Below, one piece after another: positions 3,905-43,330 of a stretch of 45,904 nt of DNA (its first letter is position 1; every line of letters starts with the position of its first letter). The position numbers and the translations under genes are program-made. Below the pieces are notes generated by a model, which saw only the letters and a list, made by a program, of their open reading frames with translations, was not told where the DNA came from and did no database searches. Origin of the DNA: Tepidanaerobacteraceae bacterium (GTDB lineage Bacteria; Bacillota; Thermosediminibacteria; Thermosediminibacterales; Thermosediminibacteraceae); assembly GCA_030446005.1 (NCBI GenBank), contig JASUSP010000006.1, positions 1-45,904 of the forward strand, written 5' to 3'.

Positions 3905-3946
3905 GGTTATACTTTTTTTATAAAAGATAACCAATTTTTTATTTTC
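3905..3946 (+). terminator. Intrinsic terminator after selD
   Basis: GGTTAT(A)CTTTT pairs with AAAAGATAACC around a TTTAT loop, followed by AATTTTTTATTTT. It separates selD from plsY. Confidence 0.75.
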
Positions 3947-3999
3947 TTAAAACGATGCAATATGGTAAAATAAAGATAAGGATGGGAGGTGAGGACTGA

Positions 4000-4596
4000 T
4001 TGCTTAAATATGTAATTGCGGGAATTATAAGTTACTTAATAGGGTCCATATCCTTTGCACAGCTAATATGCAAAAAATATTACGGAATTGACATAAGGAA
4101 GTACGGCAGCGGAAATCCAGGAACCACCAACGTGCTGAGAGTTGTCGGGGGTAAGGCTGCGGCAGCAGTGTACGTAGCCGATTTTCTCAAGGGATTTCTC
4201 GTCGCTACCGTATTCAAGTTAATTGGTGGGGATGTGCTTGCGCTTTTCAGCGGCCTTTTCGTCATTGTTGGACACGATTGGTCTTTATTCCTCAACTTTA
4301 ACGGTGGAAAAGGCATAGCCACGAGCATGGGAGTGGCATTCGCGCTGGCGCCTAAGGTAGCGCTTTTTTCTACGCTGCTAGGAGTAGCTGCGATCATGGT
4401 AACCAGGTACGTTTCGCTGGGGTCCATTCTCGGCAGCGGTTCTTTTCCCTTGTTCCTCATGATTTTTCGTTATCCTACAAAATACATAGTATACGGGACA
4501 ATAATAGCCGCTATCGCTATTTACAGGCACCGGGCAAATATAAAGAGGTTAATCGCGGGAAAGGAGTATAAGCTTGGCGAAAGGGTCAGGCCTTAA
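4000..4596 (+). CDS. plsY: Glycerol-3-phosphate acyltransferase PlsY
   Basis: PlsY transfers an acyl group from acyl-phosphate to glycerol-3-phosphate, the first committed step of phospholipid synthesis in most Gram-positive bacteria. The 198-residue protein has five or so hydrophobic helices and the three family motifs: GSGNPGTTNVLR near residue 36, GHDWSLFLNFNGGKGIATSMG near residues 90-110, and a C-terminal basic segment YRHRANIKRL. The TTG start at 4000 is supported by GGGAGGTGAGG upstream. It stands alone between terminators but adjoins the glycerol genes whose kinase makes its substrate. Confidence 0.93.
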   Translation: MLKYVIAGIISYLIGSISFAQLICKKYYGIDIRKYGSGNPGTTNVLRVVGGKAAAAVYVADFLKGFLVATVFKLIGGDVLALFSGLFVIVGHDWSLFLNFNGGKGIATSMGVAFALAPKVALFSTLLGVAAIMVTRYVSLGSILGSGSFPLFLMIFRYPTKYIVYGTIIAAIAIYRHRANIKRLIAGKEYKLGERVRP

Positions 4597-18005: not shown

Positions 18006-18638
18006 ATGGCAATGGAATCAATCCGTGAATCTAGAGAGGCTGAGAAGCTAACAGAAAAAAGGAAGAGGCAGATATTAGAGGCAGCAATCGAAGTCTTCGC
18101 TGAAAAAGGATATAATGGGGCAAAAACAAAGGAAATCGCCGAAAGGGCTGGAGTTTCTGAAGGTACGGTATTTAAATATTTTAAAACAAAAAAGGATATT
18201 CTTTTAAGCCTATTAAATACTTCCACTATAGACGCGCTGAACCAGATGGTGTTAGAGGCAGAAAGTGAAGGAAAGGATCTGCAGGAAGTGCTTGAATTAT
18301 TATTGAGGAAATATGCCACATTTGTTAAAGACAATTTTGAACTTATGAAACTTATATTTTACGAAAGTCAGTTCCATAAGGATTTGAGGAGAGGATTACT
18401 GCAAAAAGTTTATAAGAAAATATTACGTTTATTCGAAGACTTAATAAGCCAAAAAATAAAAAAAGGAGAATTTAGACAGATAGATCCAAAGGTTGCTGTT
18501 AGAGCTTTTATTGGGATGGTTATGGCCACGTTGCTGTGGGTAAAGATGATGAGTCCGGAGGAGGGCAATATTGTAGATGAGGAAAAGTTGATTCACCAGT
18601 TTATAGATATATTTTTTAATGGAATAAGGAAAAAATAG
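18006..18638 (+). CDS. TetR/AcrR-family transcriptional regulator
   Basis: A 210-residue regulator. The N-terminal HTH is canonical (RQILEAAIEVFAEKGYNG, then TKEIAERAGVSEGTVFKYF, residues about 20-65); the ligand-binding C-terminal half is helical and diverged. No operator-like repeat is seen in front of this gene itself, but a perfect palindrome of TetR type lies 270 bases downstream before a TetR fragment, with near copies before the S-layer gene and the RND operon; this protein is the best local candidate to bind them. ATG 18006 follows AGCGAGG; ATG 18012 is an alternative. Confidence 0.88.
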   Translation: MAMESIRESREAEKLTEKRKRQILEAAIEVFAEKGYNGAKTKEIAERAGVSEGTVFKYFKTKKDILLSLLNTSTIDALNQMVLEAESEGKDLQEVLELLLRKYATFVKDNFELMKLIFYESQFHKDLRRGLLQKVYKKILRLFEDLISQKIKKGEFRQIDPKVAVRAFIGMVMATLLWVKMMSPEEGNIVDEEKLIHQFIDIFFNGIRKK

Positions 18639-22559: not shown

Positions 22560-22588
22560 TTGACGATTCTGTGAATTACTAATATAAT
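22560..22588 (+). promoter_or_regulatory. Sigma-A promoter of the cobalamin operon
   Basis: TTGACG and a perfect TATAAT are separated by 17 bases. Three ATGTACG copies (22591, 22604, 22614) straddle the predicted start point and may be a protein binding site. Confidence 0.75.
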
Positions 22589-22640
22589 TTATGTACGAAA
22601 TTTATGTACGGATATGTACGAAATAGTACAAATAAATAAT

Positions 22641-22785
22641 TCGGCAGGCAACAAGGGAAGCCGGTGAAAATCCGGCGCGGTCGCGCCACTGTGAGGAGGA
22701 GTGACCCCACATCATGCCACTGGGGATAACCCGGGAAGGCGTGGGGGAGCGGTGAATCCGAGCCAGGAGACCTGAGGCCTGCTGT
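22641..22785 (+). promoter_or_regulatory. Cobalamin riboswitch aptamer
   Basis: The conserved core is clear: GGGAAGCCGGTGAAAATCC, then GCGCCACTGTGA, and the B12 box GCCAGGAGACCTG at 22762-22774. The closing helix pairs CGGCAGGC (22642-22649) with GCCTGCTG (22777-22784). Binding of adenosyl- or other cobalamin switches off downstream genes, identifying the following operon as B12-related. Confidence 0.97.
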
Positions 22786-22837
22786 CAAACTGGTGCTCCC
22801 TACGCAGGATGGGGAACAGTTTACCACTGGCTTATAT

Positions 22838-22877
22838 CCCCTGGCTTATCTTAAGGAGCCGGGGTTTTTATTTTATT
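22838..22877 (+). terminator. Riboswitch-controlled terminator
   Basis: CCCC-T-GGCT (22838-22846) pairs with AGCC-GGGG (22857-22864), followed by TTTTTATTTTATTT. It lies 53 bases after the aptamer and is the expression platform. Confidence 0.85.
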
Positions 22878-22934
22878 TCATCAATGGTTCTGTTCCAACC
22901 CACCTCTGAGGGGAGCCCTTTGGAGGGGAGGTGT

Positions 22935-23012
22935 ATGAGAAAAGAAGCATATTTTAGCATATTGGAGCTAAAATTAATAATTTCAAAGATTAAATTTGAA
23001 AAGGTGGGTTGA
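22935..23012 (+). CDS. 25-residue small ORF before the cobalamin surface protein
   Basis: ATG 22935 follows GGAGGGGAGGTG and encodes MRKEAYFSILELKLIISKIK plus five residues, ending at TGA 23010-23012, three bases before the ATG of the next gene. The next gene's Shine-Dalgarno site lies inside its last codons, so the two would be coupled. A CACCTC (22901-22906) upstream can pair with the GAGGTG of its Shine-Dalgarno site. Amphipathic character; no family recognised. Confidence 0.45.
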   Translation: MRKEAYFSILELKLIISKIKFEKVG

Positions 23013-23015
23013 GAT

Positions 23016-26000
23016 ATGTTATATAAAACCAAAAAGCGTCCGGTATCGATTATTCTGGTATTTTGCCTTTTATTAAGCATCACTATTGGTGGGGGGGCTC
23101 TGACTGCAGCTCAGGCTGCCACACAGGCTGAGAGTTATACCGCTAAGCAATTGGCTGATAAGGCGGTACAGTTTATTAACGACAGATACAAAGCCGGGGA
23201 AAAAATTGACGGCTACACTGCATATGTCCTTACCCTGGCCGGAGAAGGTCTTTCGTCGGAAAAATGGTCCAGGAATGGTGAGAGTCTGAAGGAGGAAATA
23301 CAGAAAACTGCGGACCTTCTTGGCAATAACAGCAGCCTGATTACATATATCCTGGCTACACAGAACCCCGATGGCAGTTTCGGACCTTACGCCAACGAAT
23401 ATGGAACCAAAGCTCCTCTGCAGGCGCTAGCGATGGTAAAGAATGAAATAACCGATAGCAATTTAAAAGAAAAGGTGCAGGATAGTATTTCAAAAGCCGT
23501 AAAATATTTCAAGGATCGTTATTTAAAAGGATCCCTGGCTTATGATGCCCAGGGGTGGAAATTCGACTCCCGATGCGTGGAAGCCCTCTCCGAGGCAGGG
23601 GAAGACCTTTCCACATGGGTATACGGCGGCAAGTCTCTAAAAGATATAGTCATCACCTCCGCCGATGCCGCAGCGCGTAACGCCGCCGTTCTCGACGCTG
23701 TCTACCTTGCAAAAGAATTGACTGCCCTTAGAGCGGTAGACCCGCAATCTAATAATATCGACATTCTGGCCCAGGCTATTGCGAATAAGAGCAAAACTGT
23801 TGGCGATGCGGTTTATTTTGGGAACAGCATTTATGACGATGTGATGGTTCTGACCGCCCTCGGCAAGACGGGCAAACTTGGTCTAATAGACCAGCAAAAG
23901 GCATTTAATTACATCAATAAATTTGGACACCCGCACGAGAACAGTTGGGGTAATGAAGCGGGTGTCGCCTGGGGCGGCTATTATCCTGAAGAGCCCGACC
24001 TGACGGCACAGGTTATTACGGCCCTCAGCTATTTTGATGCGGCTCGCGATACCGGCAGCGATGTCTATAATGCAATTCAGGCCGGCCTCACTTATCTCGC
24101 GGACATCCAGGACCCCGAAACGGCGGCCATAAAAGCCCAGTGGGACAGCACCTTTGCAACGGCTGAAACCCTCATAGCCCTGAAATCAGTGGGGAAAAAA
24201 TATGATGATTACGCAGGCGCCGGTTCCTCCTGGGTGAAAAGATCGAAGACAAAGACCATCGCCCAGCACATATTGGCTTTAAACCTCTGGAAGGACGCGG
24301 AGAGGGTAAACAGACTGGTAAATCTTTTAAAAGAAAGGCATTCTTCAAAAGGCTTTGACAACAGCGTCTACAGCGACATGTGGGCGTATATCGCCCTAGG
24401 AGAAGCGGGGAAGATAAATGAAATAAATACTGCTGAAGCGCGAAGCTACATACTGGGGAAGCAGAGCCTATCGGGCGATAACGCCGGTTCCTGGGGAGAA
24501 GAATGGGATGGCGTGTTTTTCCCCGACTTTATGTCAACAGCTCAGGCCATTCGGGCTCTGACGTACCTACCAGGGGCTTTAGAAGACAAGCAGGTCCAGG
24601 ATGCCGTAGAAAAAGGCCTTGATTATCTTAAAAAACAATTACAGCCCGACGGCAGCGTATATACCACAAAGCCCTATCCGGATGATCCGGTGGTGGATAC
24701 GGCCGAGGTAATTGTTACATTAAAGAAATTGGGCAAGGATCCTACAGACTGGAAAAGCAGTCAGGGCTTCACTCCTGTTGACTACATGATGCAGAAAGCG
24801 TTGAACTCCGACGGCAGTTTCGGTGCAATGGGAAATATTCTTGACGCTGCGGAAGCGTTGAGTGCATTTCTTCTAATTGATGAAGAAGCAGAATTGCCGG
24901 AATCTTCCAGGATTGTTTCTGATTCTGATTCTGATCAAGCCAAGTGCAAAGTGTATGTAGCAGTTGTGGGCAAAGATGGGGAGCTGCTGTTCGGTCCCAG
25001 CTCCGTCACTGTAAGGGCAAATGGAAAATGGGGCCTGACGGCACTGGGAGCTCTGGATGCCACTGGCCTGGATTATGTTGATGACAACGGCTTTGTCAAA
25101 AACATTGAAGGACAGTCCAACAGTGGCATGAATGGATGGATGTATAAGGTCAACGGCAAGGTACCTTCCATACTGGCTTCCAAATTTACTATAGATGACG
25201 GTGATGAAATCATCTGGTGGTACAGTACAGATATAAATTCTACCGGCCCTGAGTGGGACGAACTGGTAAACGATGAAAAGACTCAGGAAAAGAAAGATGA
25301 AGATACCATTCCTTCCACCATTGTAGAACAGAATAAAAAGTTACCACAGGCTTTGCAGATTTCCGATGAAGCGCTGAAAGCACTTGAAAAAGTCGACCAA
25401 TTGCTCGAAATAAAAGCGAATACGAAAGATGCCGTGGGCCTTGAAGAAATAAACAAATCGGTAGTGGTTGTTGGAAACCGTGGACCTTTTAAACGCGATG
25501 AATTTTTGAATTTAAAAGAAATGCTTCTTCAAAATACGGTTGATGTTGAGAAAAAGATAGCTGCTTCAACGGGGACAGTCATTGCCGATAGCAAAGAGGA
25601 AATAGCCTTGATCATTCCGGCAGGTGCATTGAAAAATGATGTAGTAATATCGATCAAAGAGGTTAGTCTGCCATCAACTGAGAAAATCGGCGGTGATAGA
25701 GGCTTGAGCCCAATTCCTGCCGGCTACAAAGCTTTATCGGGAATTTACCAATTTTGCCCGGATGGAACCTCTTTTACTAAGCCTGTAACAGTGGCTATAA
25801 GAATTGCTATTCCGCTCCTGGTAAAACCGGAAAATCTAGCCCTTGCCTGGTATGATAAAGAAGGTGGCAAGTGGGCGGTTATCCCTGCTGTGGTGGACTT
25901 GCAAAAGGGTGTCATTCTGGCTAAGTTAGAACACTTCTCAGAAGTTGTCGTGTTTGCAAAGGAGGTAAAAAAATCGTTTGCTGATGTAAACGAGGCGTCT

Positions 26001-26510
26001 TTCAAATGGGCCAAGGATGCTGTTGAAGCTCTGGGCGGAGCCGGAATTGTGACGGGAGTTGACGGAACTCGCTTCGAGCCGCGCCGTGCTGTGACCAGGG
26101 CGGAGTTTGTTAGCCTTCTGGTCAGGGCACTGGGCCTTGAACCAAAGACGGGCAGAAAAGGACAATTCAAAGACGTAAAAGAAGATGCGTGGTCTGCAAA
26201 AGCCGTGTACACCGCTGCGGACTGGGGCTTTGTCAACGGCTATGAAGATGGCACATTCCGTCCTAATGGTACCATTACCAGGGAGGAGATTGCGGTTATC
26301 CTGTCCCGTACATTCGGGCTTGCCTCATCTGGGAAAAAGCCAGATTTTAAAGATAGAAAAATGATTTCGCCGTGGAGCGAGGAAAGTGTAGCTGCTGCTG
26401 TAGCTGGAGGGTTGCTCAAGGGGTTTGAAGACGGTACATTCCGGCCGAAAGCTACGGCCAGCAGGGCAGAAACCGCCGTTATAATATACCGAATTATGGG
26501 AGGAGAATAG
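23016..26510 (+). CDS. SLH-anchored, intrinsic-factor-like cobalamin-binding surface protein
   Basis: A secreted 1164-residue protein. Signal peptide (1-35) is followed by alpha/alpha-barrel repeats of the squalene-cyclase/prenyltransferase type to about residue 625 (QNPDGSFGPYANEYGTKAPL; GDNAGSWGEEWDGVFFPDFM; LNSDGSFGAMGNILDAAEAL). Residues 644-750 form a DUF4430 domain (KWGLTALGALDATG; NSGMNGWMYKVNGK; GDEIIWWYS), the family related to the transcobalamin/intrinsic factor C-terminal domain. A ZU5-like segment (PAGALKNDVVISI, about 840-985) and three SLH domains (about 990-1164) finish it. Helical barrel plus beta domain is how mammalian intrinsic factor sandwiches B12. The riboswitch and the downstream ECF transporter support cobalamin capture at the cell wall. 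Cyclase activity is unlikely. Confidence 0.88.
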   Translation: MLYKTKKRPVSIILVFCLLLSITIGGGALTAAQAATQAESYTAKQLADKAVQFINDRYKAGEKIDGYTAYVLTLAGEGLSSEKWSRNGESLKEEIQKTADLLGNNSSLITYILATQNPDGSFGPYANEYGTKAPLQALAMVKNEITDSNLKEKVQDSISKAVKYFKDRYLKGSLAYDAQGWKFDSRCVEALSEAGEDLSTWVYGGKSLKDIVITSADAAARNAAVLDAVYLAKELTALRAVDPQSNNIDILAQAIANKSKTVGDAVYFGNSIYDDVMVLTALGKTGKLGLIDQQKAFNYINKFGHPHENSWGNEAGVAWGGYYPEEPDLTAQVITALSYFDAARDTGSDVYNAIQAGLTYLADIQDPETAAIKAQWDSTFATAETLIALKSVGKKYDDYAGAGSSWVKRSKTKTIAQHILALNLWKDAERVNRLVNLLKERHSSKGFDNSVYSDMWAYIALGEAGKINEINTAEARSYILGKQSLSGDNAGSWGEEWDGVFFPDFMSTAQAIRALTYLPGALEDKQVQDAVEKGLDYLKKQLQPDGSVYTTKPYPDDPVVDTAEVIVTLKKLGKDPTDWKSSQGFTPVDYMMQKALNSDGSFGAMGNILDAAEALSAFLLIDEEAELPESSRIVSDSDSDQAKCKVYVAVVGKDGELLFGPSSVTVRANGKWGLTALGALDATGLDYVDDNGFVKNIEGQSNSGMNGWMYKVNGKVPSILASKFTIDDGDEIIWWYSTDINSTGPEWDELVNDEKTQEKKDEDTIPSTIVEQNKKLPQALQISDEALKALEKVDQLLEIKANTKDAVGLEEINKSVVVVGNRGPFKRDEFLNLKEMLLQNTVDVEKKIAASTGTVIADSKEEIALIIPAGALKNDVVISIKEVSLPSTEKIGGDRGLSPIPAGYKALSGIYQFCPDGTSFTKPVTVAIRIAIPLLVKPENLALAWYDKEGGKWAVIPAVVDLQKGVILAKLEHFSEVVVFAKEVKKSFADVNEASFKWAKDAVEALGGAGIVTGVDGTRFEPRRAVTRAEFVSLLVRALGLEPKTGRKGQFKDVKEDAWSAKAVYTAADWGFVNGYEDGTFRPNGTITREEIAVILSRTFGLASSGKKPDFKDRKMISPWSEESVAAAVAGGLLKGFEDGTFRPKATASRAETAVIIYRIMGGE

Positions 26511-26546
26511 AATTAAATTAAAACTTTGTTGCAGTGGGGGATATGA

Positions 26547-27359
26547 GTGAAAAACCAAGCTGTAAAGATTTCGATTATTATAGCACTACTACTTGCCATA
26601 ATAATAACCTTAACCACGGCTGAAAAAAACCACAGGTCTTTGATGTCTAATAATGTGAATACAGAGCCGACGAGTGCTATAATAAACGGACAGACAGAGC
26701 AGAAAGCCGGTGGACTTGCGGGCGGTTCGCAGGAGAAGGAAACAGGCACTGCTGCGGGTAGCGTTACTGTTAAAAAAAAGATCGGTGAAAAGGCAGAGCT
26801 TGCCGATGTAAAGTCACAGACAGAAATAAGACAGATTCCTAATGCTAAATCCGTGTCTGCCGGTAGCAGGGGTACTTCGGCAAGCAGTACTGCGGTTTCC
26901 TCTGAGGTTAATATGTCCTCGGCCGCTTCTGATAAAAAAGAGTCCGCTGCTGATGGCAGTGATACTACAAAAGAAACCGACTCAACTTCTGTTGCAGCAG
27001 GCAAATGTCAGGTGGAAATTGCCATTGTCGGAAAAGAAGGTCGGATAGTGTACGGCCCTGCAAAGGTGGCAGTAAAAGAGAACAACAGGTGGGGGTTAAC
27101 GGTGCTGGGTGCTCTCGATTCCACCGGAGTTGAATATAACACCAGCCCGACGTATGCTGGTTTTGTCATAAGCATAGCAGGACAGGCAAACAAAGGTATG
27201 TCGGGCTGGATGTACAAGGTAAACGATGAGGTGCCAATGGCTGCCGCAAGTGAGAAAAAGATCAAACCGGGCGATAGGATAATCTGGTGGTACAGCGAGA
27301 GCATCAGTACCCCCTCTCCCGACTGGGAGAGTTTGGTTAAGAATTCGCCTCAAAATTGA
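26547..27359 (+). CDS. Membrane-tethered DUF4430 (transcobalamin C-terminal-like) protein
   Basis: A 270-residue protein with one N-terminal hydrophobic helix (IIIALLLAIIITL), no lipobox, and a Ser/Thr/Lys/Gly-rich linker of about 110 residues. The C-terminal DUF4430 domain (about 154-262) is closely similar to that of the preceding protein: RWGLTVLGALDSTG, KGMSGWMYKVNDE and GDRIIWWYSE. GTG 26547 follows GGGGG. The flexible linker suits a second B12-binding module held at the membrane, able to take ligand from the wall-anchored protein and pass it to the ECF transporter encoded next. The transfer role is inference. Confidence 0.85.
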   Translation: MKNQAVKISIIIALLLAIIITLTTAEKNHRSLMSNNVNTEPTSAIINGQTEQKAGGLAGGSQEKETGTAAGSVTVKKKIGEKAELADVKSQTEIRQIPNAKSVSAGSRGTSASSTAVSSEVNMSSAASDKKESAADGSDTTKETDSTSVAAGKCQVEIAIVGKEGRIVYGPAKVAVKENNRWGLTVLGALDSTGVEYNTSPTYAGFVISIAGQANKGMSGWMYKVNDEVPMAAASEKKIKPGDRIIWWYSESISTPSPDWESLVKNSPQN

Positions 27360-27374
27360 GAGGAGAAAATTATA

Positions 27375-28304
27375 ATGCTGGACCGCTTTTTTTATAGAGA
27401 AAAAGGGCTCTTTTTGCAGAGTCTTCACCCGTTGTCCGCGTTAACATATATTGCAGTTTTGCTGGTGCTGGCGTTGGTGTTCAACCACCCGCTTTACCTC
27501 CTTGGACTGCTGGCAGTTACAGTCACGGCCATTAAAGCTCTTGACGGGATAGATGCCTGGAAAACTTTTCTCAGAGTAAGCTTGGGGGCAGCTTTTGTTA
27601 TCGTAATTGTAAATGCGATTACTGTGCGCGCTGGCGAGACCATCATATGGCACGGACCGTACATACCGGTTTTCGGCAGGTTGAACGTCTCACTGGAGGC
27701 CGTTTGTTATGGTGCGGACATGGGATTAAGGCTTCTGGATATAATGAGCATTTTTTGCCTTTACAATTTTATGATTCATCCCGACCGGATCCTGGATTTG
27801 CTGTCCCGCTTTTCTTTCAAGTCCGCACTGGTGCTTTCACTCGCCGCCAGGATGTTCCCCACCATGGTAAGTCGGCTGGATAGTATCAAGGAAGTGCAGG
27901 CAGCGAGAGGAGTCGATTTTAATGCCGGAACATTAAAAGAAAAAATGGGGAAATACGTCGTATTGATGAAAATACTACTTTTAACTTCTATGGAAGATTC
28001 CATGGAAACGGCGGAAGCCATGTATGCGAGGGCGTTTGGCAGCGGCAAGCGTTCACACTATGTCCGTGATGCCTGGAGGCCTAGAGATAGCGTCTGTCTT
28101 ACCGCAAGCCTGCTCGCTATGGGAGTAGCGATGTACGGTTGGACCAAAGGCCTGGGCACATTCAGCTTTTATCCGCGGCTTGCTTATCTTATTGACGGGC
28201 TTACGGGAATTGTGCTCCTTTTCGCCGTAATTTTTCTGTTATCCTTCCCATTAATATTGAGTTGGGGGTGGCACAATTGCCCCTTTATCAAATCAAAAAT
28301 CTGA
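27375..28304 (+). CDS. ecfT: ECF transporter transmembrane component EcfT
   Basis: EcfT is the scaffold coupling the ATPases to the S component in energy-coupling-factor vitamin importers. The 309-residue protein has about five to six hydrophobic helices; the C-terminal cytoplasmic coupling helices carry the paired family motifs SIKEVQAARGVDFN and AEAMYARAFGSG. It starts at ATG 27375, 15 bases after the DUF4430 gene, and overlaps the ATPase gene. Placement within a B12-riboswitch operon makes it a dedicated rather than shared module. Confidence 0.9.
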   Translation: MLDRFFYREKGLFLQSLHPLSALTYIAVLLVLALVFNHPLYLLGLLAVTVTAIKALDGIDAWKTFLRVSLGAAFVIVIVNAITVRAGETIIWHGPYIPVFGRLNVSLEAVCYGADMGLRLLDIMSIFCLYNFMIHPDRILDLLSRFSFKSALVLSLAARMFPTMVSRLDSIKEVQAARGVDFNAGTLKEKMGKYVVLMKILLLTSMEDSMETAEAMYARAFGSGKRSHYVRDAWRPRDSVCLTASLLAMGVAMYGWTKGLGTFSFYPRLAYLIDGLTGIVLLFAVIFLLSFPLILSWGWHNCPFIKSKI

Positions 28305-29947
28305 CTTATTTTTACCCCAACAGCCGGAAGCCTGCATTAAAAGACATAGATATGATTATTGAAGAGGGAGAGTTTTTGCTCATTGCTGGCGGTTCCGGTT
28401 CGGGGAAATCTTCTCTTGCTCGGGTGCTCGCTGGCTTAATTCCCGGCTTTTATGGTGGTCGCATCGGTGGCAGCGTTTTCTTTCGGGGCAAAGATATTAA
28501 GCAGCTTGACAAACGCAGTATAGCAAGGGAAGTGGGGATAGTCTTCCAGGATCCGGAAAAACAGCTAATTATGACAAGCGTGGAGGCCGAAATTGCGTTT
28601 GGCTTGGAAAACCTGGGTCTTCCACGGCAGGAGATGGCCCGCCGTATTGCCGAAGTCATGAGTTTTTTGGGGCTTGCGGAGCTAAAGCGAGAATTTACTG
28701 TAAAACTATCAGGTGGTCAAAAACAAAAACTTGCCCTGGCTGCAGTACTTGCCATGCAGCCTTCGGTTTTAATCCTTGATGAGCCCACTTCTCAACTGGA
28801 CCCGGTAGCGGCGGAGGATTTTCTCAATCTTGTAAAACGTTTGAATGAAGATATAGGCATGACCGTGATTTTAATCGAACAGAGGCTGGAAAGGTGTTTT
28901 CATATAGCAGACAGAATTGTGCTTATGGAAGGTGGAAGAATAAGATTTGAGGGCACACCTGAGCAGGTGGCTCGCTGGGCGGCACAGTGTGGAGAGCCTT
29001 TTATCCCACCTGTCGCCCGCTTCTTCGGCAAGGCAGGTCTTAATACAATTCCCGTCACGGTAAAAGAAGGACGGCGTATGCTGAGAGAAAAATTTAAACC
29101 TTCTTCGGGAGATTTTTATTTAAAGCATCCCGGTGTAGTGCATGAAGAAGAACCGCTCTTACGGATGGAAAGGGTATGGTTCGCATATCCCGATGGCAGG
29201 GAAGCGTTGCAGGATATAAATTTACAATTTTTTGCCGGAGAGCTGGTGGCCGTGCTGGGAGCCAATGGAGCGGGCAAATCCACGCTACTCAAAACCATGG
29301 CAGGGCTGTTGAAACCAGGACGCGGCCGGGTAATGTTGATGGGTGGGGAACCGGGGAGCAGCGTCAGTCGGAAGGCATGGAATTCATGTGTGGGTTACCT
29401 TTCCCAGAATCCCAGCGATTACCTGTTTCAGGATACTGTAGAGGAAGAATTATTATATACTTTAAAAAATTTTGGCATCAGCCCGAACGGTGTAGTTGAT
29501 GAAATAATGGATAAGCTTTCGCTGCAGGACTTTCGACACGCAAATCCGCGGGATTTGAGCTGTGGGGAACGCCAGAAGGTGGCCCTGGCTTCGGTTATGG
29601 TCACGAGACCAAAGCTTTTGCTGCTGGATGAACCTACCAGGGGGCTTGACTATCGCCAGAAGGCCGAAATGGGGAAAGTACTGTTAGATTACTGCAGGCA
29701 GGGGGCAAGTGTTGTACTGACTACCCACGATGTGGAATTTGCAGCAGAATACGCATCGAGAGTTATAATGATGTTCTGTGGCAGGATAGTATGTGACGGT
29801 CCAACACATCAAGTTCTATCAGAGTCGATTTTTTATTCTACCCAGATCGGTAGGATGTGTCGGGGGTTTGCAGACGGTATTCTAACTCCGGAGGAAGCTC
29901 TGGCCGTGTTAAAACCTGCGTCGCCCGGAAAACGGGAAAGGAAGTGA
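28277..29947 (+). CDS. ecfA: ECF transporter fused double ATPase
   Basis: About 556 residues with two complete ABC ATPase domains in one chain, replacing separate EcfA and EcfA'. Domain 1: Walker A GGSGSGKSS (38-46), Q-loop VFQDPEKQL, signature LSGGQ, Walker B VLILDEPTSQLDP. Domain 2: Walker A GANGAGKST, YLSQNPSDYLF, signature LSCGE (Gly replaced by Cys) and LLLLDEPTRGLD with TTHD. TTG 28277 is chosen because GGGGGTGG lies six bases upstream; it overlaps ecfT by 28 bases. ATP hydrolysis would power uptake by the neighbouring T and S components. Confidence 0.92.
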   Translation: MPLYQIKNLTYFYPNSRKPALKDIDMIIEEGEFLLIAGGSGSGKSSLARVLAGLIPGFYGGRIGGSVFFRGKDIKQLDKRSIAREVGIVFQDPEKQLIMTSVEAEIAFGLENLGLPRQEMARRIAEVMSFLGLAELKREFTVKLSGGQKQKLALAAVLAMQPSVLILDEPTSQLDPVAAEDFLNLVKRLNEDIGMTVILIEQRLERCFHIADRIVLMEGGRIRFEGTPEQVARWAAQCGEPFIPPVARFFGKAGLNTIPVTVKEGRRMLREKFKPSSGDFYLKHPGVVHEEEPLLRMERVWFAYPDGREALQDINLQFFAGELVAVLGANGAGKSTLLKTMAGLLKPGRGRVMLMGGEPGSSVSRKAWNSCVGYLSQNPSDYLFQDTVEEELLYTLKNFGISPNGVVDEIMDKLSLQDFRHANPRDLSCGERQKVALASVMVTRPKLLLLDEPTRGLDYRQKAEMGKVLLDYCRQGASVVLTTHDVEFAAEYASRVIMMFCGRIVCDGPTHQVLSESIFYSTQIGRMCRGFADGILTPEEALAVLKPASPGKRERK

Positions 29948-29961
29948 AAGGGAATATGCTT

Positions 29962-30675
29962 ATGAAAAAACTGTTGTCCAGAATTCTATTCTGGCTCGGG
30001 TTTGCAATTATCCCGATATTTCTGGCGACCGCCATGTCGGGGAAGACTTCCATCACCCGAGAATGGGGGCTGGCGGCATCTATTATCATCTTCGGCGCTG
30101 TTGGTTTGATGTACCTGAGCTTTGAACTGGACGCTTCCTCCCCTAGAGAAATTGCCGTAATAGCGGTGCTGGGAGCCGTTGGTGCCGCAGGTCGGTTTGC
30201 CTTTGCCGCCCTGCCCAATATACAGCCTACTACATTTATAGCAATCGCTTCCGGGTATGTCTTCGGACCGACTGCTGGTTTTATGACGGGTTCTACCGCG
30301 GCTCTGGTTTCGAACTTTTTTCTGGGGCAAGGGCCGTGGACACCGTGGCAGATGTTTGCGTGGGGTCTCGCCGGCTCGTCGGCTGGTATCGTTAAACGTC
30401 TCTTCCCGCACATAGGCAGATGGGGAATGGCCGCTTTCTGCTTTTTATGGGGGTATTTTTTTGGATGGATTTTAAACCTGTGGTCATGGACTACCTTCGT
30501 TAAACCATTAAACTGGCAGAGTTTTGTCGCCGTTTGTGCGGCAAGTTTCTGGTTTGATACTTTTCACGCCATAGGCAATGCGGCATTTTACCTGCTTTTC
30601 GGCACAGGCTTTATGAAGATACTGAATCGGTTTAAGCTCAAGATGACTGTTACGTATATAGGAGCTGATGACTAG
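29962..30675 (+). CDS. ECF transporter S component, predicted cobalamin-specific
   Basis: A 237-residue membrane protein with six or so helices of the ECF S-component type: the segment IAVIAVLGAVGAAGRFAF followed by GYVFGPTAGFMTGSTAALVSN and WQMFAWGLAGSSAGIV matches the family's small-residue-rich core. ATG 29962 is favoured over 29956 because AAAGGGA lies 8 bases upstream. It closes the riboswitch operon, so its substrate is probably cobalamin or a corrinoid precursor (CbrT/CblT-like); sequence alone does not separate these. No separate terminator is visible before the next promoter. Confidence 0.85.
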   Translation: MKKLLSRILFWLGFAIIPIFLATAMSGKTSITREWGLAASIIIFGAVGLMYLSFELDASSPREIAVIAVLGAVGAAGRFAFAALPNIQPTTFIAIASGYVFGPTAGFMTGSTAALVSNFFLGQGPWTPWQMFAWGLAGSSAGIVKRLFPHIGRWGMAAFCFLWGYFFGWILNLWSWTTFVKPLNWQSFVAVCAASFWFDTFHAIGNAAFYLLFGTGFMKILNRFKLKMTVTYIGADD

Positions 30676-30710: not shown

Positions 30711-30739
30711 TTGACACGCGGCTTTTAAATTATTATTAT
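30711..30739 (+). promoter_or_regulatory. Sigma-A promoter of the RND efflux operon
   Basis: TTGACA and TATTAT are separated by 17 bases, close to the full consensus. The leader runs about 245 bases to the first gene. Confidence 0.85.
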
Positions 30740-30933: not shown

Positions 30934-30993
30934 ACTGTTCCAACTAAAAAAATTAAAAATGACAATTACAGTAAAGTAAAAGGGGTGCATTTT

Positions 30994-32241
30994 ATGAAGT
31001 TTTGCAGAAAAAACACCAAAATAATAGCTTCGCTATTGCTGATTTTCTTTGTGGCGTCAATATTCCTTCTTGCTGGATGTTCAAAAAAGGAAGGAGAAGA
31101 AAAAAATGATACAGCAGTACCGGTAAAAGTGATGAAAACAAAAAAGGACAAAATAGAAGACATAGTGACTTTTACAGGCCAGATTGAAGCGGGGGATGAG
31201 GTTAAAATTGTAAGCAAGATTTCGGGAAGGGTAAAAGAAGTTAATTTTGAAGTAGGTGATTATGTAAAAGAAGGAGAACCTCTCGTAATACTTGAGACAG
31301 AAGAACTGTACGACCAGCTCGCCCAAGCGGAGGCCGCTTTAGCAGCGGCAAGAGCCAATCTTGCAGCAAATGAATCGGGGGCGTTGCCACAGCAGCTTGA
31401 GCAGGCAAAGGCAGCTTTTGAGCAGGCCGAAGCAAATTATTTAAACGCCAAGGCTGATTATGAGCGCATGAAGGCCTTGTATGAGGCGGATGCAATTTCC
31501 AAGCAGGCATTCGACAGCATGGAACTGAAGTACAAAGTGGCAAAGAGCCAGTATGAAAGCGCAAAAGAACAATTGAAGCTGACCGAAGAACGCCTACCAA
31601 AAAATATTGAAGCACTGAGAGCTCAGGTTGCTCAGGCGCAGGCTCAGGTTGAGCTTATAAAAACGAATATAAAAAATTCGGTTATAAGGGCACCTATATC
31701 GGGTATGATTTCATCAAAACATATAAATCCCGGCGAGATGTGCCAGGCAGGGGTGACGCTTGGTTCAATAGTTAATATAGATAAGGTTAAAGTGGTTATT
31801 GATGTGCCGGAAGAGGATATTAATAAAATAAAAGATGGACAGGAAGCGACAGTGAATATAGATGCTCTAGGGGATGAAGGTAAAATAAAGGGGAAAATAA
31901 GCATTATTTCGCCGGCATCGGGTTCAGCCAGGCTTTTTAAGGTAAAAATCGAGATGGAAAACAAAGATCATAGGTTAAAGCCCGGCATGTTTGCAAGTGT
32001 GAATGTTGTCAGGGGTGTAAAGGAAAATGTGATTACGGTTCCAAAAGATGCTGTGCTGATTAAAAAACATGGCAATGTGGTGTATGTTGTAAAGGAAGGC
32101 AAGGCGGAAGAGCGGCTTGTGAAGATCGGAGTTACAAACGGAGACAGAGTTGAAATAACGGAGGGCCTTAATGAAGGCGAAATGGTTGTAATAAGTGGGC
32201 AAAACATGCTGATGGAAGGCTCTGCGGTAAAAATCCAGTGA
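30994..32241 (+). CDS. RND efflux periplasmic-adaptor (MFP) lipoprotein
   Basis: A 415-residue membrane-fusion protein that links an RND pump to an exit duct. The lipobox LLAGC places the lipidated Cys at residue 29. Domains follow in order: barrel-sandwich/lipoyl half GRVKEVNFEVGDYVKEGEP, a coiled-coil hairpin of Ala/Gln/Lys-rich heptads (about 105-225), the second lipoyl half VIRAPISGMISSKHINPGEM, the beta-barrel and the membrane-proximal domain (VVISGQNMLMEGS). ATG 30994 is chosen because AAAAGGGG lies 8 bases before it. It starts a four-gene operon. Confidence 0.92.
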   Translation: MKFCRKNTKIIASLLLIFFVASIFLLAGCSKKEGEEKNDTAVPVKVMKTKKDKIEDIVTFTGQIEAGDEVKIVSKISGRVKEVNFEVGDYVKEGEPLVILETEELYDQLAQAEAALAAARANLAANESGALPQQLEQAKAAFEQAEANYLNAKADYERMKALYEADAISKQAFDSMELKYKVAKSQYESAKEQLKLTEERLPKNIEALRAQVAQAQAQVELIKTNIKNSVIRAPISGMISSKHINPGEMCQAGVTLGSIVNIDKVKVVIDVPEEDINKIKDGQEATVNIDALGDEGKIKGKISIISPASGSARLFKVKIEMENKDHRLKPGMFASVNVVRGVKENVITVPKDAVLIKKHGNVVYVVKEGKAEERLVKIGVTNGDRVEITEGLNEGEMVVISGQNMLMEGSAVKIQ

Positions 32242-32264
32242 AAATTTAGCAAGGGGATGAAATC

Positions 32265-35200
32265 ATGAGAATTACGGAGACGGTTGTAAAAAGACCTATT
32301 GCAACATTCATGGCTGTGCTTGTCATAATTATCCTCGGGTTTGTTTCCTTGAGCAAGATGCAGATTGATTTGCTGCCGGATATACAGCTTCCGACGGCTG
32401 TTATTGTAACAACATACCCCGGGGCAAGCTCCGAAGAAATAGAGACGATGATAACAAAGCCGATTGAAAAGGAAATAGCCGGGATAGAAAACATAAAAAG
32501 CATATCTTCATCAAGTGAAGCCAACGTTTCAATGATTACGGTGAGTTTCAACTGGGGAACAGACCTTGATACAGCGGTGACGGATATAAGAGAGAAAGTG
32601 GATATGGTTAAAAAAAGATTGCCGGACGATGCAGATGAACCACTGGTGTTTAAGTTTGACCCGTCTATGTTGCCGGTGCTTATTTACGGCATGACGGGTG
32701 ACAGAGATCCGCTTTTGATGAAGCAGATTGCTGAAGATATAATAGAAAAAAGGCTTGAGAGGGTAGCGGGAGTTGCAAGCGTCCAGGTTACAGGTGGAGT
32801 AGAGCGCCAGATAAGGGTACTATTATCACCACAAAAGATGAACGGGTATGGAATCAGCTTTTCACAGGTTATACAGGCACTTGCAGCAAATAACCTGAAC
32901 CTGCCAGGCGGAACCGTTGACTACGGCAGTAGGGAGCTTATAGTGAGGACTACCGGAGAATTTGAAAATGTGGACGAAATAAAAAACCTTCCTGTAGCTA
33001 ATAGGCAGGGAGCCATTGTTAGATTAAGCGATATAGCTGATGTAAAAGATGCTACGGAAGACGTAAAAACCCATTCCAGAATCAACAAGTACGAAGGATT
33101 AAGAATACTTATACAAAAATCCAGCGACGCTAACACGGTGGCGGTGGCAAATGGAGTAAAAAAAGAACTCGAAGCGATTAAAAAAGAACTTCCAAGAGGT
33201 ATAGAGCTATATCAAATATTGGACCAATCGGACTTTATAAACAGGTCAATAAACAACGTGATATCAAGTGCAATACAAGGCGGTTTACTTGCGGTAATAG
33301 TTCTCTATCTTTTTTTACATAATTTCAGGTCAACAGTTGTTATTGCAATTTCCATACCAATCTCAATTATAGCCACATTTGTTGTAATGTATTTTAGCGG
33401 CATTACGATAAACTTAATATCCCTTGGCGGCCTTGCTCTGGGAATAGGTATGCTGGTGGATAGTTCCATAGTTGTGCTTGAAAACATATATTACCACAGA
33501 GAATTAGGGCTTAACAGCATGGAAGCGGCATCTGTAGGAGCAAGTGAGGTTACTCTTGCGTTAGTGGCATCTACACTGACGACGGTTGTCGTATTTTTAC
33601 CGATAGTCTTTGTAAAAGGCTTGGCGGGAATAGTTTTCAAGGAAATGAGTCTCACCATCACTTTCTCTCTCATGTCTTCTCTGATTGTTGCTATTACGAT
33701 CGTACCTTTGCTGAGTTCTCGTCTGGTCAAAGTAACCCCCACAGAAGAGAAAAAACAGGGCTTTCTTGCCAAGATATTCGAGAGAATGGACAGATTTTAC
33801 AATAGTATAGATGAAAAGTATGGGAAGCTTCTTGCGTGGGCCCTGGGGCACAGGAAGATTGTAATACTTGCAATTGTTGTGCTTCTTGCCATAAGTGTGG
33901 CGGCAGTGCCACTTGTAGGTACAGAATTTTTCCCGGAGACCGATGAGGGTAGGATTTCAATCAGTGTGGAATATCCTGTTGGCACAAAAGTTGAGAAGAC
34001 CGATGAGTTGGTTAAATCCATAGAAAATGTAGTTGCTTCAATACCAGAAGTTCAGATGTATTCGTCACAGGTTGGAACGGATACAAGAAGGAGCTTCCTC
34101 GGGACGACCGGAAGCGGCGAAATGGCCAGCATGGACGTGCGCCTTGTCCCGGTTAGCGAAAGGAAGAGGTCAACTAAGGATGTAGTTGAAGAAATCAGGC
34201 AAAAAATAGGAGAAGTCCCTGGGGCAAAAATCGAGATAAACAGCGCATCTATGATAAGCACTATGGGTTCTGCTATAGCAGGAAGCAGTAAACCAGTCCA
34301 AATTGCCATAAAGGGAGACGATTTTGCCACCCTTGAAAACCTTGCCGAAAAAATTAAAGCTATAGTCAAGAAAGTGCCGGGCACAAGGGATGTTGAGACA
34401 TCTATAGATGAGGGGAGACCGGAAGTCCGGATAAAAGTTGATAAGGACAGGGCATCATACTATGGCCTGGATGCAGGTCAGGTGGCGCAAGCAGTAAGAA
34501 TTGCAATAAATGGAGTTGAAGCAACCAAATACAGAGTTGCCGGGACAGAGGTGGAAGTGAATGTCCAGCTCAATGAGCTTTCAAGGAAGACCCTTGAAGA
34601 CCTTGAAGGAATGACATTGATGTCTCCGTCTGGCGTCAGTGTGCCGCTTAGAAACATAGCTAAATTTACGATTACTGAAGGCCCTAATGTGATTAATCGT
34701 GTGGATCAGGAGCGAGTAGTGTATGTGACTGCCGATATTTACAGGAGGAGTTTGGGAGAAGTAACAAATGACATCAAGTCAGCAGTTTCTTCAATCAATC
34801 TGCCGGAAGGCTACAGTATAAGTTTTGAAGGCCAGAATAAAGAAATGATGGAATCGTTTGCGGATCTATTCCAGGCTATGCTTCTTGCAGTATTCCTTGT
34901 TTATGCAGTAATGGCAGCCCAGTTCGAGTCACTCCTTCATCCATTTACCATAATGTTTGCAATACCATTCTGCACAACAGGTGTTGTATTTGGCCTGCTT
35001 TTAAGCAGGAGGGCGTTCAGCGTGCCTGCATTTATCGGTGTTATAATGCTGGCGGGCATTGTGGTTAACAACGCCATTGTATTAGTGGATTATATTAACC
35101 AGTTGAGGGCAAAAGGAAAGACGGTCAGAGAGGCTATAGTTGAAGCCGGCCCAAGAAGGCTCAGGCCCATCATGATGACAACACTTACGACAGTTCTCGG

Positions 35201-35405
35201 CCTTTTACCCCTTGCTCTTGGAATTGGTGAAGGCAGTGAAATCCAGGCGCCCCTTGCTGTTACCGTGCTGGGAGGATTGTCCGTCTCAACCCTTTTGACC
35301 CTTGTGGTTGTGCCTGTGCTTTATTCAATATTTGAAGACCTGTCTGCAAGGATGATAAGAAGAATAAATATATTTAAGCAAAAACTCGGCAGAAATCTCG
35401 TTTAA
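32265..35405 (+). CDS. RND-family efflux permease (AcrB/SwrC-like)
   Basis: A 1046-residue protein, full length for the hydrophobe/amphiphile efflux (HAE) family, with 12 predicted helices in two repeats, each with a large extracytoplasmic loop. The start MRITETVVKRPIATFMAV and PTAVIVTTYPGASSEEIE are typical. In helix 4 the proton-relay region reads GMLVDSSIVVLEN: one Asp (about residue 398) is kept, but the AcrB Asp-Asp pair is Asp-Ser, as is common outside Proteobacteria. Substrates cannot be told from sequence; Firmicute relatives (SwrC) export surfactants and drugs. The ATG is 23 bases after the adaptor. Confidence 0.94.
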   Translation: MRITETVVKRPIATFMAVLVIIILGFVSLSKMQIDLLPDIQLPTAVIVTTYPGASSEEIETMITKPIEKEIAGIENIKSISSSSEANVSMITVSFNWGTDLDTAVTDIREKVDMVKKRLPDDADEPLVFKFDPSMLPVLIYGMTGDRDPLLMKQIAEDIIEKRLERVAGVASVQVTGGVERQIRVLLSPQKMNGYGISFSQVIQALAANNLNLPGGTVDYGSRELIVRTTGEFENVDEIKNLPVANRQGAIVRLSDIADVKDATEDVKTHSRINKYEGLRILIQKSSDANTVAVANGVKKELEAIKKELPRGIELYQILDQSDFINRSINNVISSAIQGGLLAVIVLYLFLHNFRSTVVIAISIPISIIATFVVMYFSGITINLISLGGLALGIGMLVDSSIVVLENIYYHRELGLNSMEAASVGASEVTLALVASTLTTVVVFLPIVFVKGLAGIVFKEMSLTITFSLMSSLIVAITIVPLLSSRLVKVTPTEEKKQGFLAKIFERMDRFYNSIDEKYGKLLAWALGHRKIVILAIVVLLAISVAAVPLVGTEFFPETDEGRISISVEYPVGTKVEKTDELVKSIENVVASIPEVQMYSSQVGTDTRRSFLGTTGSGEMASMDVRLVPVSERKRSTKDVVEEIRQKIGEVPGAKIEINSASMISTMGSAIAGSSKPVQIAIKGDDFATLENLAEKIKAIVKKVPGTRDVETSIDEGRPEVRIKVDKDRASYYGLDAGQVAQAVRIAINGVEATKYRVAGTEVEVNVQLNELSRKTLEDLEGMTLMSPSGVSVPLRNIAKFTITEGPNVINRVDQERVVYVTADIYRRSLGEVTNDIKSAVSSINLPEGYSISFEGQNKEMMESFADLFQAMLLAVFLVYAVMAAQFESLLHPFTIMFAIPFCTTGVVFGLLLSRRAFSVPAFIGVIMLAGIVVNNAIVLVDYINQLRAKGKTVREAIVEAGPRRLRPIMMTTLTTVLGLLPLALGIGEGSEIQAPLAVTVLGGLSVSTLLTLVVVPVLYSIFEDLSARMIRRINIFKQKLGRNLV

Positions 35406-35469
35406 TCGTAACAAAAAGCAGGCGTTTTAATAAGAGGTCAAAATTGATAAAACCAGGGGGGTCCTGAAA

Positions 35470-36669
35470 ATGAGGAGTAGAAAAATCATATCTTTCCTTG
35501 CAGGTCTCTTATGTTTTTTAATACCGCTTGCAGGTTTTGCGGAATCCAAAGTTCGCGGAGATGTTTCTGCTAATACAACCGAAATCGCAAGCAGTGCATC
35601 CGAAAGTCCTAACGCTGAAGAAAAAGTAAGCTTTTCACTTGAAGAATGCATAAATACCGCTCTTCAAAACAATATAAGCTTGAAAATTTCTCGGCAGGAA
35701 TACGAAAAAACAATAGTGGAGCGAGAAGAAGCTGAATTTCAAGCAAAGAAGATAGAAGAGATTCGAGATGATAAGATATTGAGAAATTATGTTCCAACGG
35801 CTTTCAGCTTTGAGGGAGCACAGATCAAAGACCTCGCTCCCAAGTTGAAAGAAGCCAATGAACTGATAGCGAAAAAGAACCTTGCTCTTGATGAGCAAAA
35901 CCTGAGGATAGAGGTGGAAAAAGCCTATTTCAATGTGCTAAAAGCTCAGGACAACCTGAAAAACGCAGAGGTACAACTTCAGCGAGCTAAAGAACAGCTA
36001 AAAAACGCCCAGGAAAGCTATAAGCAAGGTGTTGTGGCAAAAGATTCGGTTTTAATGGCAGAATCTGCAGTTGCCAGCGCTGAAGCAAACAGGGTTTCGG
36101 CAGAAAAAAACCTTCAACTTGCAAAAATGAACCTCAACAAAATTATGGGCCGCAGCCTTACGGCTCCTCTGGAACTCACGACTACTTTCACTTATATTCC
36201 TGCTGAAATCCCAGATGTTGAAGAAATGGTCAAAAGCGCCTTGGCACTCAGGCCGGAAGTTATCAGTGTGAGAAAAATGCAGGAAGTTGCGGAACTCAAC
36301 TGTAAGCTCGCACTAAAATACTACGCTGAAAACACTTTTACTTATAGAAAGGCAAAAATAGAGCTGGAAAAAGCTATATTAGGAGTAAAGGAAGCGGAAA
36401 ACCAGATAGAACTTGCGGTAAGGTCGGCGCATTATTCATTGGTAGAGGCTGCGGAAAAATTGAAAGCTGCCCAAAAGGCTAAGGAGACAGCGCAGGAAGT
36501 ATACAGAATAACAGAACTTAAGTATAAATCACAGGCTGCCACAATGGCGGAAGTGCTCCAGGCCATGGAAAATTTGAGGCAGGCAGAACTTTTATATACA
36601 GCCTCAGTGTTCGATTATAATGTGGCAAGGGCGCAGCTTGACAACTGGGCAGGAAAAGGTCTGGAATAG
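35470..36669 (+). CDS. TolC/OEP-like protein, short form without clear barrel strands
   Basis: A 399-residue secreted protein with a signal peptide (to about AGFAES) and two OEP-type coiled-coil repeats: SLEECINTALQNNISLKISRQ, NLRIEVEKAYFNVLKAQDNL and a second copy ending AEVLQAMENLRQAELLYTAS. TolC repeats normally hold beta strands between the helices; here the second repeat has only about 12 residues (KYYAENTFTYRK) where some 50 are expected, and the first also seems shortened. It may be a helical duct reaching through wall and S-layer without an outer-membrane barrel. It completes an adaptor-pump-duct operon in what otherwise looks like a monoderm. Confidence 0.85.
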   Translation: MRSRKIISFLAGLLCFLIPLAGFAESKVRGDVSANTTEIASSASESPNAEEKVSFSLEECINTALQNNISLKISRQEYEKTIVEREEAEFQAKKIEEIRDDKILRNYVPTAFSFEGAQIKDLAPKLKEANELIAKKNLALDEQNLRIEVEKAYFNVLKAQDNLKNAEVQLQRAKEQLKNAQESYKQGVVAKDSVLMAESAVASAEANRVSAEKNLQLAKMNLNKIMGRSLTAPLELTTTFTYIPAEIPDVEEMVKSALALRPEVISVRKMQEVAELNCKLALKYYAENTFTYRKAKIELEKAILGVKEAENQIELAVRSAHYSLVEAAEKLKAAQKAKETAQEVYRITELKYKSQAATMAEVLQAMENLRQAELLYTASVFDYNVARAQLDNWAGKGLE

Positions 36670-43043: not shown

Positions 43044-43177
43044 ACTGGACCCTTTTAAAGGAGGTGATGGAAGTCGAAAGGCACCGGTTGACACGGCTAA
43101 AGAAAAGAGGAAGGGGTGAGATATAGCATTAAAATAAGACTATGTGTTTTGACTTAAAAAAATACGGAGACTTTAAA

Positions 43178-43330
43178 AAGCGCCTGAGCTCTCGGAGGGA
43201 TTTTCTTCGGGAGCTGACGAGGATGGGGTTTATCGAACTTTCGGCGGATGCCCCACGGTGACCTGCCACCGTAAGAGGCCTACAAAACCGGCGAGCGATC
43301 GCCGGGACAAAGGGGTCTTCAGCAGGATGA
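43178..43330 (+). ncRNA. glmS ribozyme (glucosamine-6-phosphate-sensing)
   Basis: The self-cleaving riboswitch core is evident: AGCGCCTGAGCTC with cleavage expected between A43179 and G43180, then GAGCTGACGAGGATGGGG, TTCGGCGGATGCCCCACGG, CCTACAAAACCGG and GGACAAAG. With glucosamine-6-phosphate bound it cuts the leader of the glmS mRNA and lowers GlmS. The 3' limit is approximate. The stretch 43044-43177 holds no gene. Confidence 0.95.

Follow-up and report, generated by a model that had tools for sequence, protein, structure and literature searches.

A cobalamin riboswitch operon for probable corrinoid salvage, with an intrinsic-factor-like surface protein and a dedicated energy-coupling factor importer

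The window analysed here, a stretch of 45,904 nucleotides from a heat-loving Tepidanaerobacteraceae bacterium (contig JASUSP010000006.1, assembly GCA_030446005.1), encodes a five-gene operon behind a cobalamin riboswitch (22560-30675). We read this operon, at a probability of roughly three in four, as a corrinoid (B12/cobinamide) salvage system in which the substrate would be captured at the cell wall between an alpha/alpha toroid and a DUF4430/SLBB domain, relayed by a membrane-tethered SLBB protein and imported by an energy-coupling factor (ECF) transporter. Import of a B12-type substrate is strongly supported by genomic evidence, because a cobalamin riboswitch, an S component resembling CbrT and conserved linkage coincide in the operon, and corrinoid binding by the surface proteins is likely. 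In the usual description of ECF importers, the membrane S component itself catches the vitamin; the proposed system, if confirmed, would add a surface capture layer to a Gram-positive B12 importer. The intrinsic-factor-like capture of B12 by such bacterial proteins is an idea already published in 2007 (PMC1796856), which limits the novelty of this reading. The features of the operon are as follows.

22560-22588, + strand: sigma-70-like promoter, TTGACG-17-TATAAT, 11 of 12 positions in a consensus scan (consensus match only)
22629-22796, + strand: cobalamin riboswitch aptamer, RF00174 (cmscan, Rfam), 102.7 bits (gathering score 31.5; E 9.8e-25), matched over the whole model, 1-189
22839-22874, + strand: intrinsic terminator, 9-pair stem and T tail, hairpin present in the minimum-energy fold
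23016-26510, + strand: 1164-residue surface protein with signal peptide, two alpha/alpha toroids, DUF4430/SLBB domain, ZU5-like stretch and three S-layer homology (SLH) domains (profile matches, homologue alignment, model)
23982-24887, + strand: second toroid, residues about 323-624, adjoining the SLBB domain; helices at positions 24-325 of an AlphaFold model of residues 300-765; top Foldseek matches haptocorrin, transcobalamin and intrinsic factor
24942-25226, + strand: DUF4430/SLBB beta-grasp with post-helix hairpin, residues about 643-737; PF14478 E 1.8e-13; model strands 344-438
25977-26498, + strand: three SLH wall-anchor domains, PF00395 E 9.7e-34, resembling the SLH part of the S-layer protein Sap in the PDB
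26547-27359, + strand: 270-residue membrane-tethered DUF4430/SLBB protein with N-terminal hydrophobic anchor and long low-complexity linker; SLBB at 27003-27338; PF14478 E 1.3e-16, 61.2 bits
27375-28304, + strand: EcfT, CbiQ-type transmembrane component, PF02361 50.1 bits (cut-off 25)
28262-29947, + strand: fused EcfA-EcfA' ATPase, its actual start codon lying at 28262 to about 28280, two ABC_tran stretches, TIGR04520 386.5 bits (cut-off 315)
29956-30675, + strand: EcfS, CbrT-like cobalamin S component, PF12822 30.8 bits (cut-off 30.7) and profile match to 6FNP chain A; start most likely the ATG at 29956

Operon architecture and its association with CbrT-like S components

The five genes downstream of the riboswitch, encoding the surface protein, the tethered DUF4430 protein, T, the fused A-A' and S, are co-directional and closely packed, with gaps of 36 and 15 bases after the first and second genes, an overlap between the T and A-A' genes, and 8 bases between A-A' and S. 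The terminator between aptamer and first gene is likely to be the off-switch platform of the riboswitch. A 309-base gap, with a promoter-like site at 30711, lies between the operon and a resistance-nodulation-division (RND) efflux set starting at 30985, which is not part of the riboswitch operon. An earlier note, made from the sequence of the window, had proposed an operon behind a cobalamin riboswitch with these domains and this gene order; the RF00174 match, together with promoter and terminator, and the Pfam and TIGR matches bear this out. Gene order and riboswitch are found again in other members of the order and outside it, and the arrangement is hence not a product of chance.

The operon encodes T, two ATPase domains and S together, as a dedicated-module ECF transporter does. 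A profile built on 25 S components encoded in operons of this kind matched 6FNP chain A at E 1.8e-21 over 171 residues, the sole other PDB match lying at E 3.8. The 6FNP structure is ECF-CbrT of Lactobacillus delbrueckii, which imports cobalamin and cobinamide in proteoliposomes (PMC5997447). For the dedicated ECF import of B12 that had been claimed from the sequence, the transporter genes and the homology to CbrT thus hold, and import of a B12-type substrate gains strong support.

The order of the operon is kept in Thermosediminibacteraceae, Tepidanaerobacteraceae, Moorella, Desulfotomaculum, Pelotomaculum and Desulfallas. Among named organisms, Thermovorax subterraneus (L063), at 87 percent over the query, stands nearest to the window. 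Among the 26 testable loci, defined as those with at least 600 bases upstream (main gene hand-assigned at L090, L093, L096 and L097) and including the near-duplicate pairs L083/L084 and L082/L087, 23 present a cobalamin riboswitch no more than 1 kb ahead of the main DUF4430 gene. The exceptions are L090, with riboswitches about 2.3 kb upstream, and L093 and L096, with none; six loci carry more than one riboswitch ahead of this gene. The L090 locus belongs to Ca. Formimonas warabiya, where two DUF4430-SLH genes (L090:3448-5519) and three cobalamin riboswitches lie within 12 kb, and at L105 a riboswitch (3917-4131) stands ahead of a gene set in which an 831-residue protein (L105:7860-10355) fuses both ECF ATPase domains to a CbrT-like S.

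A survey of 149 genomes drawn from the phylum outlined a close association between the two families. CbrT-like S components (counted at E up to 1e-10) and DUF4430 proteins were each detected in 47 genomes and co-occur in 46 (Fisher p 3e-36), a figure to be read with the relatedness of the genomes, though the 46 span 29 families by hand count from the table, and with the derivation of the S profile from operon members. Both genes lie within 12 kb of each other in 39 of the 46 genomes and on different contigs of draft assemblies in the other seven, so that the conserved linkage the earlier note had called for is found. DUF4430 thus follows CbrT-like S almost one to one, which points to a function for this DUF family. 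The operon behaves as an accessory unit that has been moved or lost repeatedly, since DUF4430 is missing from five of the nine genomes of the family and the flanking genes vary between relatives.

In each complete operon examined, a further DUF4430 protein carries either a membrane anchor or a lipobox; in the window, the PF14478 match and the N-terminal anchor uphold the claim of a tether with a long linker. Three genomes present a minimal two-gene form (L100:5481-6382, L101:5535-6412 and L102:101-1029), in which the gene for an anchored or exported DUF4430 protein of 122-139 residues overlaps or abuts that of a CbrT-like S, and no toroid, nearby ECF module or cobalamin riboswitch was detected in the examined stretches. 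These pairs suggest a direct partnership between the tethered SLBB and S, to which the wall protein would add a capture layer, and they offer a simple test system.

The window genome also carries a cbi cluster (CbiM, CbiQ, CbiO, CbiA, CbiC, CbiD and CbiJ) behind a separate cobalamin riboswitch, and for this reason the operon probably serves salvage under low cobalamin. B12 auxotrophy is not supported as the reason for the operon, CbiD being present in three of the four operon-bearing genomes of the family. The 98 percent complete genome of Thermosediminibacter litoriperuensis (L053, G006) has the operon and no CbiD match; this species is a possible corrinoid auxotroph and a natural comparison to its CbiD-bearing relatives.

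Predicted fold of the surface protein

The product of 23016-26510 contains a DUF4430 domain (PF14478, 51.2 bits against a cut-off of 23.8), a sub-threshold ZU5 match, alpha/alpha repeats matching a squalene cyclase model at E 3.5e-9 and, beside a signal peptide read from the sequence only, the three SLH repeats expected of a wall-anchored protein. The protein comprises two toroids, because in the homologue alignment its close relatives L055, L056 and L066 lack about 300 internal residues and retain a single toroid each. The wall-anchored combination of barrel repeats, DUF4430 and SLH domains described earlier is therefore confirmed in its domains and refined by the second toroid and the ZU5-like stretch. 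An arrangement of one toroid per SLBB, with the double toroid serving the second SLBB in trans, is rejected on the operons at L066, L070, L078 and L085, where two SLBB proteins go with one toroid and no additional toroid gene is present.

Toroid proteins also occur as separate genes in related operons. Extra toroid genes bearing the catalytic DxDDTA motif of squalene-hopene cyclases, with SLH domains where complete, are found at L069:17149-18675, L075:6550-8055, L086:16767-18320, L090:15314-16855 and L092:5418-6124. In Moorella-type operons, the second DUF4430 gene is separated from T by a gene for an exported toroid protein (L072:4712-6103, L074:13304-14677 and L080:5313-6707), which at L072 ends in a Cu_amine_oxidN1 domain.

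Two AlphaFold models were searched against the PDB with Foldseek: residues 300-765 of the window protein (mean predicted local distance difference test, pLDDT, 84.6; predicted template modelling score, pTM, 0.54) and the single-toroid homologue L066 (mean pLDDT 90.0; pTM 0.70), which shows exactly 12 helices followed by a beta-grasp domain. The top 15 matches of the former and the top 14 of the latter were all haptocorrin, transcobalamin or intrinsic factor, at E down to 5.5e-10 and with alignments covering both toroid and beta domains, although the match is not fully independent, as these carriers are among the AlphaFold training structures. Prenyltransferases, terpene cyclases and other toroid proteins ranked below them, from about 2e-5. 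The isolated transcobalamin beta domain (5np4) matched the window model at a target-based template modelling score (TMt) of 0.71, and both models present the strand and helix order of the SLBB clade, E-E-H-hairpin-E-E, with the hairpin after the helix. In the predicted structures, the toroid lies N-terminal to the beta domain and both folds match, as in the animal carriers. The surface protein hence looks intrinsic-factor-like in modelled fold and domain order, yet outside the PF01122 sequence family.

Proposed relay and alternative readings

Low intracellular cobalamin would cause the riboswitch to let transcription past the terminator, as its anatomy suggests, and the SLH-bearing protein would be displayed on the cell wall. 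There, a corrinoid may be captured between toroid and SLBB domain, in the manner of intrinsic factor and transcobalamin and in keeping with the predicted folds. The membrane-tethered SLBB, on its long linker, would then hand the corrinoid to the CbrT-like S, and by homology the dedicated module of T and A-A' would power import. The hand-off from wall to membrane is inferred.

Several observations weigh against this reading. Lactobacillus CbrT needs no extracellular partner to transport B12 in vitro (PMC5997447), and the corrin synthesis cluster means that import is not explained by auxotrophy. By sequence, the toroid lies nearest to squalene-hopene cyclase: a PDB profile search with the toroid returned mainly cyclases and prenyltransferases and no B12 carrier, PF01122 (Cobalamin_bind, the transcobalamin and intrinsic factor family) scored 12.4 bits against a cut-off of 25 in the surface protein, and no PF01122 match was found in its own genome. 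A sequence-level link of the toroid to these carriers was accordingly dropped, the PF01122 match being marginal and the likeness showing by fold comparison alone. Up to 11 of 24 homologues (L073, L074, L080, L085, L078, L086 and others) have an Ig-like Big_2 domain between toroid and SLBB, an intervening domain that a strict toroid-SLBB sandwich would need to tolerate. Lastly, neither model reproduced the closed geometry of transcobalamin (global TM 0.28-0.49, root-mean-square deviation about 22 A, linker pLDDT below 50). The intrinsic-factor-like plan put forward in the earlier note is supported by the rank of the carriers as top structural matches and by the predicted order of barrel and beta domain; across this low-confidence linker, the two domains may or may not face each other.

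The most serious alternative, which we regard as unlikely, holds that the ECF transporter and the tethered SLBB import the corrinoid while the toroid-SLH protein acts as a wall scaffold, a corrinoid store or a carrier-stripping receptor, without direct transfer. The minimal forms, in which a small DUF4430 protein and S occur without a toroid, imply that the basic unit can do without the toroid, and Big_2, ZU5 and SLH domains are all of a type common in wall scaffolds. Nevertheless, even divergent operons preserve the order of toroid and SLBB, the animal carriers are matched above every other fold, and the toroid-SLBB gene stands first behind the riboswitch.

Two further alternatives have very little probability. 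The operon might import cobalt, with the riboswitch merely coordinating cobalt with the need for B12, given that CbiQ and CbiO models recognise its T and A domains and that a cobalamin riboswitch also precedes the cobalt transporter and cbi cluster of this genome; this was rejected on the CbrT-like S, which does not match CbiM, on the lack of CbiM and CbiN in the operon, on the separate CbiMQO of the same genome (CbiM in L060) behind its own riboswitch, and on the near one-to-one tracking of CbrT-like S by DUF4430. Terpene cyclase or prenyltransferase-type activity of an extracellular toroid placed incidentally behind a B12 riboswitch, for which the squalene-hopene cyclase matches and the DxDDTA motif of the additional toroid proteins speak, was likewise rejected, since DxDDTA was not found in the window surface protein or its main toroid-SLBB homologues, the main protein has a signal peptide and SLH repeats, and B12 carriers stand far above cyclases in the structure search with the L066 model (E 5e-10 vs about 2e-4).

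A broader proposal is tentative, and we hold it at somewhat below even odds: that DUF4430/SLBB proteins are near-obligate extracellular partners, acting as substrate-binding proteins, of CbrT-type S components in the phylum, and that toroid-SLBB proteins, with wall-to-membrane corrinoid transfer, are the bacterial counterpart, perhaps the source, of intrinsic factor and transcobalamin. Should the surface capture be confirmed, these operons would make the proposed bacterial origin of animal B12 carriers open to study in a tractable bacterial system.

Elsewhere in the window, the RND set (30985-36669) comprises genes for an adaptor, a pump of the AcrB type and an OEP/TolC-like outer-membrane efflux protein, in a genome whose group we take to be single-membraned. 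A TetR-like regulator is encoded at 18006-18638. A glmS ribozyme (43168-43328, 120.9 bits) lies directly 5' of a SIS/GATase gene fitting glmS at 43380 and is preceded by a phosphoglucomutase-family gene at 41703, an ordinary arrangement.

Comparison with known systems

Burroughs et al. (2007) described a bacterial toroid-SLBB fusion in Desulfotomaculum, with a second extracellular SLBB paralogue and CbiO-like ATPase and CbiQ-like neighbours; the authors predicted a role in scavenging B12 and suggested a transfer to animals (PMC1796856). The operon is a real and well-formed member of the kind predicted then, now tied to a proven substrate family, and shares with that transcobalamin-like SLBB clade the toroid-SLBB fusion, the paired extracellular SLBB and the CbiO/CbiQ-type genes. 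It differs in its riboswitch (a term with 0 occurrences in the 2007 paper), CbrT-like S and duplicated toroid, and in that the window genome and some relatives carry corrin synthesis genes, whereas such bacteria were reported usually to lack key B12 biosynthesis enzymes (PMC1796856). The present analysis adds the links to the riboswitch and to CbrT, the near one-to-one association of DUF4430 with CbrT-like S, the duplicated toroid, the minimal DUF4430-S pair and the occurrence in putative B12 producers. The open literature on DUF4430 and transcobalamin-like bacterial proteins, subscription papers not being covered, yielded no experiment that followed up the 2007 prediction.

The Bacteroides lipoproteins BtuG (PMC6143338) and BtuH (PMC8941943) are likewise described as capturing B12 at the cell surface for a dedicated importer, as is proposed here, and differ in belonging to a Gram-negative outer-membrane BtuB system. 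The B12-binding DUF4465 domains (PMC13398666) bear a different family name from DUF4430, and the two are set apart here by name only. ECF-CbrT of L. delbrueckii has a homologous S component, with cobalamin and cobinamide the expected substrates here as well, and differs in that T, fused A-A' and S in the window share an operon with two extracellular SLBB proteins. Intrinsic factor, transcobalamin and haptocorrin are the best structural matches, sharing the predicted alpha6/alpha6 toroid followed by a beta-grasp domain with post-helix hairpin. The window protein departs from them in its extra toroid, ZU5-like stretch, SLH domains and sub-cut-off PF01122 score, and in being wall-anchored and coupled to an ECF importer, whereas the animal carriers use endocytic receptors.

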